From: an uncultured Spirochaetales bacterium
GTDB lineage: Bacteria > Spirochaetota > Spirochaetia > Sphaerochaetales > Sphaerochaetaceae
Length of the DNA: 47,024 nucleotides
Direction of reading: 5' to 3'
Assembly: GCA_949285145.1 (NCBI GenBank)
Contig: CASDXQ010000005.1
Location: forward strand, 1-47,024
Below the pieces are notes generated by a model. The model saw only the letters and a program-made list of their open reading frames with translations. It made no database searches and was not told the origin of the DNA. The stretch's first letter is position 1, and every line of letters starts with the position of its first letter. Positions 44,001 through 46,299 of this stretch are shown here, piece after piece. Both the position numbers and the translations under genes were made by a program.

Positions 44001-44313
44001 CAGGCTTACATATGAAGAGGAAAGGGAAATCCTCTCATCCTCAATAGTCGAATCGGCACAGAACAGACTCAAATCCATCCTTATGACAACCCTTACCACT
44101 ATGATGGGTGTCGTTCCCATGGCCGTGGCAACTGGAGAAGGCAGCGAGATATATGCATCCCTGGGGCAGGCCATTGCCGGAGGTCTTTTCGCAACAACTC
44201 TCATTTCCCTCTTCGTCCTTCCTGTTCTCTACTACACACTTGAGAGGAGAAGAATAAGGAAGATCTACTCAAAGAGCCGCAGGGATGTGAAGAAGCTGGA
44301 GGTGAAACTGTGA
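41080..44313 (+). CDS. RND efflux pump, AcrB/HAE1-like inner-membrane subunit
   Basis: A 1077-residue proton-driven exporter with the RND layout: one N-terminal helix, a large periplasmic loop, six helices, a second loop and six helices. Visible: RYAVRHPVYITMLLIALVLFAMLS, GASAQEVERGVIDILEE, and the helix-4 motif GMVVALGAIVDGSIVMLEQV. The helix-4 motif keeps one Asp of the proton relay and has Gly at the second (DD in AcrB, DN in many HAE1 pumps). Helix 10 carries TLGGTAVNNGIILYDYIN. Start is GTG at 41080, overlapping the MFP stop (GTGA). Substrate unknown (drugs, bile salts, lipids). Middle gene of the complete MFP-RND-TolC operon. Confidence 0.95.
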   Translation: MKITRYAVRHPVYITMLLIALVLFAMLSISSMNTEFISGMNMPTVIVYAIYPGASAQEVERGVIDILEENFATLPDFASMTSNAYSNVGVVQIQFSDGVDVYDQVDEVRNRIRQLSDSLPAGLQGEPAVIVGGTEMLPVFTFTVESGNDLASTTEYINSTITPMITQLEGVSGVTVSGGSEREVLITLDTDELKSKGISPAAVYQVLSYSNTNLPLAMTTYEGKSSSLRFDAEFNDLADMENLAVGADEEGNIIRLADVAEVEIKASEPETVIKNDGKNIVLVDVTKRADGDTMSISSWIRQILDQQEKEMNGAVHFNIIADDARTISASLEAVINSGIMGVIVAILVIFFILGNVQATLTIAISMPLSIFFTFIAMAASGISISLMSISGMVVALGAIVDGSIVMLEQVYKHWQTKKNGRFLYTVSESIFKSADEVGSSILGSTITTVIVFVPILFVSGLGGQIMYEVALTFMYALSASCIVAIVIIPYLLKKLLKEERKDMKDNAITRFADRLTGVYGNAVSWTLKNRKFVILMSVVILLVTVWAVVQLGIAFIPSTDNSEFYVNLYFPSSYTQDRTEAEIDRAEQIVRQIIPEVQTIVTTVGSTSGLSFSSSTYNGNIRVILPPVAQRDKDRDVHTLMTAVKTALDSIMIDCQVEVLNGGFDNLASYVTGGGGFGLTLVGEDMDTLYSDAERIKRYLESDPEVMSVTMDSSYDAYSTVIEASNELLSSLGITGYEAGTTTAILFNGMDCGIYTDPDSGERYDIRLESSVAGEPVTMDTLENLEIISQSGIKVNYAAVANLAVENTISQINHTDRANTISLSAAITGESSSSIQSRLDDYLEDHPLSSGVSTQTGGVGELIQDTMGPLVIAMLIGFFLVFMVMVFQFERFSQPLLVMLTIPFCFIGVALGLLAFNSTLNILSMLGVITLGGTAVNNGIILYDYINMVIKRKRTSAVEEKENIKADEDTVIEGRLTYEEEREILSSSIVESAQNRLKSILMTTLTTMMGVVPMAVATGEGSEIYASLGQAIAGGLFATTLISLFVLPVLYYTLERRRIRKIYSKSRRDVKKLEVKL

Positions 44314-45782
44314 TGAGAAAATTCAGGAAATTCCTTTTATATACAATGCTTGCCGCATCTGCATGCACTCTTTGTGCCGCAGGAGAAGATACTCTGACAT
44401 TCGACGATCTTGTCACAGCGCTTGAAAATAACAACACCACCCTGCTCCAGAGCATTGAGGACTACAGAAGTGCGACACTTGATGTCAAGGATGCGAAGGC
44501 AAACTACCACCCTCAGATCACATACACTATTGCCGGAAGCTATGTGTACAATCATCAGGTGATGGATCTGGATACGAGTTCGCTAGGTAACAAGCTTTCC
44601 GATGTTCCATATTCAGTTTATATTCAAAATCCATTTTTTCCAGATGACATAAACAATGCGCTTGCTGTGCCAGTTTCTGTATTAGGTTCCATGATTCCAT
44701 CAAGTGTTGAAGTTCCAATAGATGTCAGCGATCCCTACTTCAATGCCCAGATTTCCCTAGTCCAGCCTATCTGGACATGGGGAAAGGTGGGAAGCAGCGT
44801 CGAGATGTATGAGGAGATTGAAAGTGCCCGAGCCCTTCAGATAGGAGACACCGAAAAACGCCTCATAACCGAGCTTAAAGCCTATCTTGCATCACTGTAT
44901 TATCTGGAGAAGATCGACAATGTGCTCTCAGAGCTTCAGGCCGACTCTCAGGAACTGGTAACACTTGCACAGGACAGCAGCGATGCAGGAGCACTGCTTG
45001 CCGTAGATGCGGCAAAAGCCCGTGTCACCGCAAGCCAGATTGATGTCAGCCGCACTCAGATACAGACTCAGATGGAAAGCATCCTCACAAGCATTGAGAC
45101 TCTCACCGGTATAAACGACATAACAGCAGACATGATCGATTTCATACCGGATGAGAATTATTTCAAGGAAATGGCAGAGACTGAGCGCACAATGCTCCTG
45201 GCCATGGCAACAGGCGGCAGCCAGGCATCAATGCAGATGCTGACCCATATGATAAATGCGGCCCAGGCCGCATCAAAGGCTGCAGACAGATCAATGTACT
45301 GGTATCCTGATATAGCACTGAGTGTAAGTGCAAACTACACCGCCCCCATGACAAGCAAATGGGCCGACAACAGCAGCTGGGGTGTAACGGTGGCAGTAGG
45401 CCTTCAGGGTACGCTGTGGGACGGCGGCAAGAAGCTGAATGATCAGGACAGGGCAGAAAGTGCAGCCGCGAGTGCACAGATCAGCAGAAATGAAGCTGTC
45501 AGCACAATAAAGACCACACTTACTGAGAACCTCAATACAATTGACCTTGCTCTAGCCAATATTGACTACCAGAAGTCAAATATAGAACTCCTCACATCAG
45601 AACTTGAACTTGAGGAAAAAAAACTTGAACTCGGCGCCTCAAGCAGAAGCGATGTGCTGAATAAAAGAATCGAGCTCAATCAGGCACGCATTGAGGAGAT
45701 TACAAACAGGATAAGCCTCGCATCTGCAGTCTACACGGTTGAATACCTGACAGGATACGTTCCTGATACTGTTTCCGACTAA
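44310..45782 (+). CDS. TolC family outer-membrane efflux channel
   Basis: A 490-residue outer-membrane factor. Signal peptide MMRKFRKFLLYTMLAASACT. Two long helical repeats typical of TolC: about 28-75 plus 165-280, and about 290-320 plus 375-485. Motifs LVQPIWTWGKV and GLQGTLWDGGKKLNDQDRAE mark the beta-strand/helix transitions. The start is GTG 44310 or ATG 44313; GGAGG is 7 or 10 nt upstream. It overlaps the pump stop. Residues about 92-139, predicted as the first surface loop, are encoded by visibly AT-richer DNA in which all six prolines use CCA, unlike the rest of the gene. Third gene of the efflux operon. Confidence 0.93.
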   Translation: MMRKFRKFLLYTMLAASACTLCAAGEDTLTFDDLVTALENNNTTLLQSIEDYRSATLDVKDAKANYHPQITYTIAGSYVYNHQVMDLDTSSLGNKLSDVPYSVYIQNPFFPDDINNALAVPVSVLGSMIPSSVEVPIDVSDPYFNAQISLVQPIWTWGKVGSSVEMYEEIESARALQIGDTEKRLITELKAYLASLYYLEKIDNVLSELQADSQELVTLAQDSSDAGALLAVDAAKARVTASQIDVSRTQIQTQMESILTSIETLTGINDITADMIDFIPDENYFKEMAETERTMLLAMATGGSQASMQMLTHMINAAQAASKAADRSMYWYPDIALSVSANYTAPMTSKWADNSSWGVTVAVGLQGTLWDGGKKLNDQDRAESAAASAQISRNEAVSTIKTTLTENLNTIDLALANIDYQKSNIELLTSELELEEKKLELGASSRSDVLNKRIELNQARIEEITNRISLASAVYTVEYLTGYVPDTVSD

Positions 45783-45821: not shown

Positions 45822-45918
45822 CTCGAAACAAGCAACCTGATAACAAAAGAAATTGTGATCATTTAACCACATACCCAAAAATAAGATATACTTACTCATG
45901 CAAGGAAGTATAAAGAAG

Positions 45919-46001
45919 ATGCAGTTTGAATGGGATGAAGAATAAGTATTGTGAGAATAATATCTCCAATGAAAACAATGAAGAAGAAATGCAACGAGTA
46001 G
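45919..46001 (+). pseudogene. brnT: BrnT toxin relic with internal deletion
   Basis: ATG at 45919 opens MQFEWDEE then TAA, matching the usual BrnT start (M-x-F-E-W-D-x-x-K). From 45951, in another frame, VRIISPMKTMKKKCNE and TAG (45999-46001) match the usual BrnT end (IRIISARxAtkkE). The roughly 60 residues normally between them, including the RNase core, are missing. AAGGAAG precedes the ATG. The antitoxin gene starts 2 nt after the TAG, as in intact brnTA operons. BrnT is a ribonuclease toxin; this copy cannot make one. Confidence 0.75.
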
Positions 46002-46002
46002 T

Positions 46003-46299
46003 ATGAAAAGAATGACATTGGAAGACGTTAAGGCATATAAACCGAATGCTGAAGAACTTGAACGGGCACGAACTTTCAAGAATACAGATTTCTCCGACTG
46101 CCCCAAAATGACAAAAGAGGAATTGAAGAACTTTCACCGTGCAGGTTCGATCTACAAGCCCTTGAAAAGCCATATCTTTCTCCGCCTCGACAATGACATA
46201 ATCGCCATATTCAAAGCAGAAGGCAAAGGCTATCAGACAAGAATCAACCAGGCTCTCAGGGAATATATTTCAGAACATCCCGAAATGACGAGAGCATAA
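46003..46299 (+). CDS. brnA: BrnA family antitoxin
   Basis: A 98-residue antitoxin of the BrnA (COG3514) family. The C-terminal DNA-binding signature LRLDNDIIAIFKAEGKGYQT then RINQALREYI (about 60-89) is intact. The N-terminal part (MTLEDVKAY...DFSDCPKMTKEEL) is the toxin-binding side in family members. In complete systems BrnA dimers repress the brnTA promoter and neutralise BrnT. Here the toxin gene just upstream is a relic, so this is an orphan antitoxin that may still act as a repressor or guard against another BrnT. Confidence 0.88.
   Translation: MKRMTLEDVKAYKPNAEELERARTFKNTDFSDCPKMTKEELKNFHRAGSIYKPLKSHIFLRLDNDIIAIFKAEGKGYQTRINQALREYISEHPEMTRA

Follow-up and report, generated by a model that had tools for sequence, protein, structure and literature searches.

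Close to the end of one contig of an uncultured Spirochaetales bacterium, a complete gene for a BrnA antitoxin is preceded by two very short reading frames which resemble the ends of a BrnT toxin. This raises the question of whether a type II toxin–antitoxin (TA) locus has decayed here, in which way its parts were lost and what has become of the remaining antitoxin. The window, i.e. the whole stretch of 47,024 nucleotides that was analysed (contig CASDXQ010000005.1), belongs to the genome called G000 in the following; G012 (CASFTW010000043.1) and G001 (CALXYO010000014.1) are two sister species of the same genus, both uncultured Spirochaetales. In the window brnT has lost its core and no longer reads in one frame, with a complete BrnA behind it, and the same relic occupies the same place in both sister species. 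Most probably this is a decayed BrnTA locus with a history of two modules, in which the toxin ends were kept as expression signals of brnA and BrnA itself is likely live yet decaying. The features of the locus are compiled in Table 1.

Table 1 Features at the brnT relic and in its surroundings (positions of the window)
Feature	Position	Strand	Basis or remark
Outer membrane efflux gene (TolC-like, OEP), last in an RND pump operon	44310..45782	+	PF02321, E=3.8e-40
135-bp block identical in three species (promoter, leader, 5' end of the relic, start of the 3' piece)	45844..45978	+	Alignment
Sigma-70-like promoter TTAACC-18-TATACT	45863..45892	+	Consensus match only
Inverted repeat TATACTTACT/AGGAAGTATA, putative BrnA operator, covering both the -10 box and the ribosome-binding site	45887..45912	+	Sequence
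brnT 5' relic, MQFEWDEE and stop (ATG 45919, TAA 45943-45945), DNA ATGCAGTTTGAATGGGATGAAGAATAA	45919..45945	+	ORF reading and DNA match to intact relatives
Likely continuation of the brnT 5' part in another frame; may hold a second lesion and the deletion junction	45944..45961	+	Inference from 11-13/18 nt identity
brnT 3' relic, VRIISPMKTMKKKCNE and stop, conserved RIIS motif (GTG 45951, TAG 45999-46001)	45951..46001	+	ORF reading and DNA match
ACG at the ancestral brnA start site	45994..45996	+	Alignment; ATG in G012, G001 and intact homologues
Gene of the BrnA antitoxin, 98 aa, with the whole C-terminal PF14384 domain (ribbon-helix-helix), ATG 46003, TAA ending at 46299	46003..46299	+	PF14384, E=1.1e-17
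First part of a multicopy ORF that runs off the contig end	46500..47024	+	Five copies in own genome, four in G012

The preliminary description of this DNA took the two peptides, separated by 5 nt, for the ends of a BrnT whose middle had been lost, and the DNA comparison bears this out. Aligned to the intact brnT of a relative (G099:C18, 93 aa), the 5' piece (27 nt) reached a score of 22 and the 3' piece (57 nt) a score of 26, values that 5000 dinucleotide shuffles of each piece never attained, nor did any of about 6650 stretches elsewhere in the window. In a BLAST search on the genome scale both pieces matched one intact brnT locus in collinear order (80% over 64 bp, E=9e-10; 89% over 34 bp, E=4e-5), with about 180 bp extra between them in the intact gene; the alignment to intact brnT amounts to a net deletion of about 178 bp, which is no multiple of three. 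The idea of chance peptides at a place where a toxin was never present draws on the shortness of each piece and on the joined peptide ends having no match in Pfam, but it is refuted by the collinearity and the shuffle test, as well as by the correct placement of the relic ahead of BrnA, and its probability is negligible. Alignment to BrnT profiles, which had been proposed as a check, failed at the Pfam level, while the alignment at the DNA level was far better than chance.

The profile of BrnT (PF04365) found no match in the whole genome G000. The relic falls outside the profile, and its homology rests on the DNA alignment to intact relatives; judged by this alignment, the piece is a relic of the BrnT family and not a member of it. 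A catalytic core is lacking, as the frame stops after residue 8 and about 180 bp are gone, and only a broken relic stands directly upstream of brnA, where a BrnTA operon has its toxin gene. The expectation that such a relic stays hidden from detection holds for profile searches, and since relics this small are missed by them, TA decay is probably undercounted. The homology to the 5' end of brnT probably extends about five codons beyond MQFEWDEE, shifted by one base, because 11-13 of the 18 nt at 45944-45961 are identical to four homologues (shuffle p 0.0006-0.01). There may thus have been two lesions, a frameshift of 1 nt and the large deletion, and the deletion joint may lie within a short AGAAT similarity ahead of RIIS. 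Two further reading frames at this place, an antisense ORF over the relic (45896-46018, minus strand) and a short ORF whose stop overlaps the ATG of brnA (45935-46006, plus strand), give no sign of being genes. The exact relic pattern was not found in viral contigs.

In both sister species (G012:C43 and G001:C14) the relic has the same junction and lies directly behind the orthologous efflux gene, which is 92% and 85% identical to that of the window, respectively. A scan of GTDB with BrnA also returned G012 and G001 as the only near-identical neighbours, and the full stretch from promoter to relic has no further match among 139 genomes of the family. Elsewhere in the genus, genomes have the efflux gene and any brnTA on different contigs; the module seems therefore to have reached this site in the ancestor of the three species. 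Complete brnTA pairs, with which the preliminary description proposed to compare the locus, do exist in relatives (G005:C27, G012:C25 and G099:C18), none of them at the relic locus. That an intact brnT was collapsed during assembly might be suspected in a genome of 61 contigs whose window ends inside a repeated ORF beginning about 200 bp past brnA, but it is very improbable in view of the same junction in the genomes of two further species, which were assembled separately.

BrnA itself matches PF14384 with 64.5 bits (curated cut-off 26.1) over profile positions 1-68 of 68 and belongs to this family; NCBIfam gave no family for it or for an intact relative of BrnT. With an intact BrnA and its partner toxin absent nearby and, by the BrnT profile, throughout a genome that is 96% complete, the earlier classification as an orphan antitoxin stands. 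The spacing of the two genes, said to have survived with 2 nt between relic and antitoxin, has to be revised. The actual gap is 1 nt, and in intact relatives BrnT ends with KATKEECNEYYEENDN and brnA begins within that stretch. Similarly, VRIISPMKTMKKKCNE had been regarded as the last residues of BrnT, yet the intact homologues run on (ECNEYYEENDN) into brnA. The TAG of the relic stands where intact brnT has a Tyr codon, so that VRIIS..CNE is not the true C-terminus and the gap of 1 nt is not the ancestral spacing. Furthermore, where intact loci have the Shine-Dalgarno-like AAGGAGGAA, the window reads GAAGAAGAA; together with the ACG at the ancestral start site this means that brnA is possibly poorly translated here.

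The order of pieces in G001 also speaks against the implicit claim that BrnA is the partner of the relic. There, the ends of a first toxin (T1) are followed by a truncated antitoxin A1 (52 aa), the tail of a second toxin T2 (ISARSAEEDEINEYYGKND) and an antitoxin A2 (50 aa). A1 represents a different BrnA type, with 39% identity over the matched stretch, and A2 covers residues 1-50 of a BrnA with 94% identity to that of the window. From this arrangement, the BrnA of the window probably served as antitoxin in a second module that has since disappeared. The simplest reading would be a tandem T1-A1-T2-A2 array as the ancestor, from which G000 and G012 would later have lost A1 and the tail of T2, a segment flanked by two similar joints of about 25 bp. 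Relatives commonly carry brnTA in tandem (G083:C7, G087:C6, G139, G140). Alternatively, the extra unit in G001 may be an insertion and not ancestral, given that the three genomes are mosaic. The closest pair is G001 and G012 in the RND gene, G000 and G012 in tolC, and G000 and G001 at the C25 locus, a second BrnA locus on contig C25 of G000, where the divergence between the latter two is 3.8% versus 17% in the RND gene. These shifting ranks suggest recombination between the three genomes.

Starting from such an array, the locus could have come about as follows. The first toxin would have lost its core, including the codon matching Lys9 and the region of Arg41 of Brucella BrnT, two residues needed for RNase activity within the catalytic set Asp6, Glu7, Lys9, Arg41 and Glu78 (PMC5086665). 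Recombination between short stretches that resemble each other where toxin and antitoxin genes join would have removed the first antitoxin and the second toxin, and the second antitoxin would thereby have ended up behind the relic of toxin 1. The toxin ends would survive as expression signals of brnA, with promoter, operator and leader on the side of the 5' end, and ribosome-binding site and start within the 3' end of brnT. BrnA would probably be made from the relic promoter and repress it via its RHH domain; it may also neutralise incoming BrnT. After a period of purifying selection, its decay would now be beginning.

In which state the antitoxin persists can be judged from its substitutions. 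Between G000 and G012, brnA differs by 9 synonymous and 5 nonsynonymous changes (pS 0.151, pN 0.021, p=0.0003, omega 0.13), a pattern by which BrnA was under purifying selection for at least part of the divergence of the two species. A role as shield or repressor fits this selection as well as the inverted repeat at the promoter, a feature that also precedes several intact brnT genes at a comparable distance; a resident target for a shield is absent, as the genome of the window has no BrnT. In G001 both BrnA copies are without the RHH domain, so the function of BrnA is not kept throughout the group, and this truncation and the lost start codon in the window argue for ongoing decay. Pure neutral decay, by which the toxin was lost by drift and a functionless BrnA is only the last piece to go, would account for the truncation in G001, for a brnA of the window whose start codon is lost and whose ribosome-binding site is weakened, for the insertion-like elements close behind brnA and for the further BrnA remnants of G000 on C25, C51 and C36, the first of which, in the same genomes, has no significant constraint (p=0.09). 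It is at odds with the substitution pattern of brnA and with a promoter and inverted repeat that are unchanged across three species; we give it somewhat less than an even chance.

The promoter and the inverted repeat are part of a block of 135 bp (Table 1), the longest invariant run in the three-way alignment of 7.4 kb and three times as long as the next (45 bp); divergence reaches 25% in the 61 bp immediately before it and 8-12% in tolC. Such an island without a single change, which is preserved even in G001 with its truncated BrnA, could mean that the block has a function of its own and was selected in the relic form, e.g. as leader peptide, regulatory RNA or operator acting in trans. Yet the control locus, the pseudo-BrnA region on C25 of the same genomes with its low and mosaic divergence, contains an invariant run of 133 bp at the end of the marR-like gene. 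This weakens the invariance as proof of selection, and with the mosaic divergence pointing to exchange between species, recent recombination is an adequate alternative. RNA structure in the block does not exceed the level of chance (z=0.14) and Rfam has no match to it above threshold, all of which leaves an own function of the block unlikely.

How brnT genes break in general was counted in the 139 family genomes, many of which seem to be MAGs, so that some single frameshifts may be assembly errors. At the 138 loci with an open BrnA, BrnT is intact in 70, broken in 29 and not detected in 39, although on inspection some of the latter still hold short BrnT tails. The reverse case, an intact BrnT with a broken BrnA, occurred once; six intact BrnT genes were without a PF14384 match, several of them followed on inspection by a BrnA-like N-terminus and a divergent C-terminus. 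A separate profile pass over the fetched loci yielded 70 intact, 34 broken and 28 without BrnT, in a set partly picked for breakage, whose proportions are no rate. Among the relics which had lost at least 15 profile positions (n=16), 14 retained the C-terminal end and 7 the middle, and an N-terminal end was detected in 3, the last count being biased low since short pieces escape the profile; 11 kept the C-terminal and lost the N-terminal end, and none showed the reverse. The frequent retention of the 3' end agrees with the idea that it is kept because the ribosome-binding site and start of brnA lie there. Counts of Shine-Dalgarno motifs gave no useful separation of intact and broken loci. Independent losses which preserved both ends were found at L279 (MFEWDVNK.., then IRIISARKA.., then BrnA), L239 and L107; L114 kept only the start of brnT. 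At one further locus (G005:C11:48532-49044), BrnT and BrnA form one open frame of 177 aa after a frameshift that removed the end of the toxin; BrnT-BrnA fusions have been described (PMC11980606).

The locus shares with BrnT/BrnA of Brucella abortus (PF04365/PF14384) the toxin-first order, the BrnT ends FEWDEEK.. and RIIS.., a BrnA with C-terminal RHH domain and a promoter inverted repeat as expected for autoregulation, here as putative operator; it differs in its deleted toxin core and broken frame and in the orphan BrnA, which is probably not the partner of the relic. In E. coli, the chromosomal ccdO157 locus likewise loses its components step by step at one fixed site (Mine et al. 2009, as cited in PMC7167474 and PMC2654758). 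That case belongs to another TA family, whereas here a large internal deletion spared both toxin ends, in several spirochaete lineages. Antitoxins without toxin are abundant in Klebsiella pneumoniae (PMC7192599), and anti-addiction is the role usually proposed for them (PMC2654758). The persistence of the antitoxin is common to these and the present case; the toxin relic that is still visible ahead of the antitoxin, with a shared start region, distinguishes the latter. As stepwise TA decay and orphan antitoxins are already known, the locus of the window is a real, mostly ordinary case. It is at the same time a clean example of the death of a TA module, in which the toxin core goes first and the antitoxin later, at a fixed chromosomal site and in several species, and most valuable among what is new are its history of two modules, the loss of the start codon and the repeated survival of the 3' end of the toxin.

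A wider claim would be that toxin-first TA operons with overlapping genes undergo a stereotyped internal deletion of the catalytic core which keeps both ends as signals of the antitoxin (promoter and operator at one end, ribosome-binding site and start at the other) and turns the relic into the selected leader of an orphan, autoregulated antitoxin, many independent times in spirochaetes. We regard this as possible but doubtful. No paper stating the end-preserving pattern or its explanation was found within an incomplete coverage of the literature, and both may be a modest new generalisation. The family census puts numbers on a bias usually argued from single cases, and the shaping of surviving toxin fragments by overlapping gene ends is testable in any toxin-first TA family.

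On the 3' side, the multicopy ORF behind brnA has no match in Pfam, and several of its copies lie near contig ends; it is probably an unclassified mobile element. G012 has a different reading frame directly behind brnA (G012:C43:1-158), which we take to be transposase-like. With different elements in the two genomes, the 3' side seems to have been struck by different mobile elements in each species. Elsewhere in G000 there are three more BrnA remnants (C25:30829-30990, C51:5678-5740 and C36:7922-7996), which together with the absence of BrnT indicate that brnTA is eroded throughout this genome. The remnant on C25 lies between marR-like and response-regulator-like genes in all three sister species, and in G012 an in-frame BrnT tail (TERKGDVIRIISARKA) is still present ahead of it.
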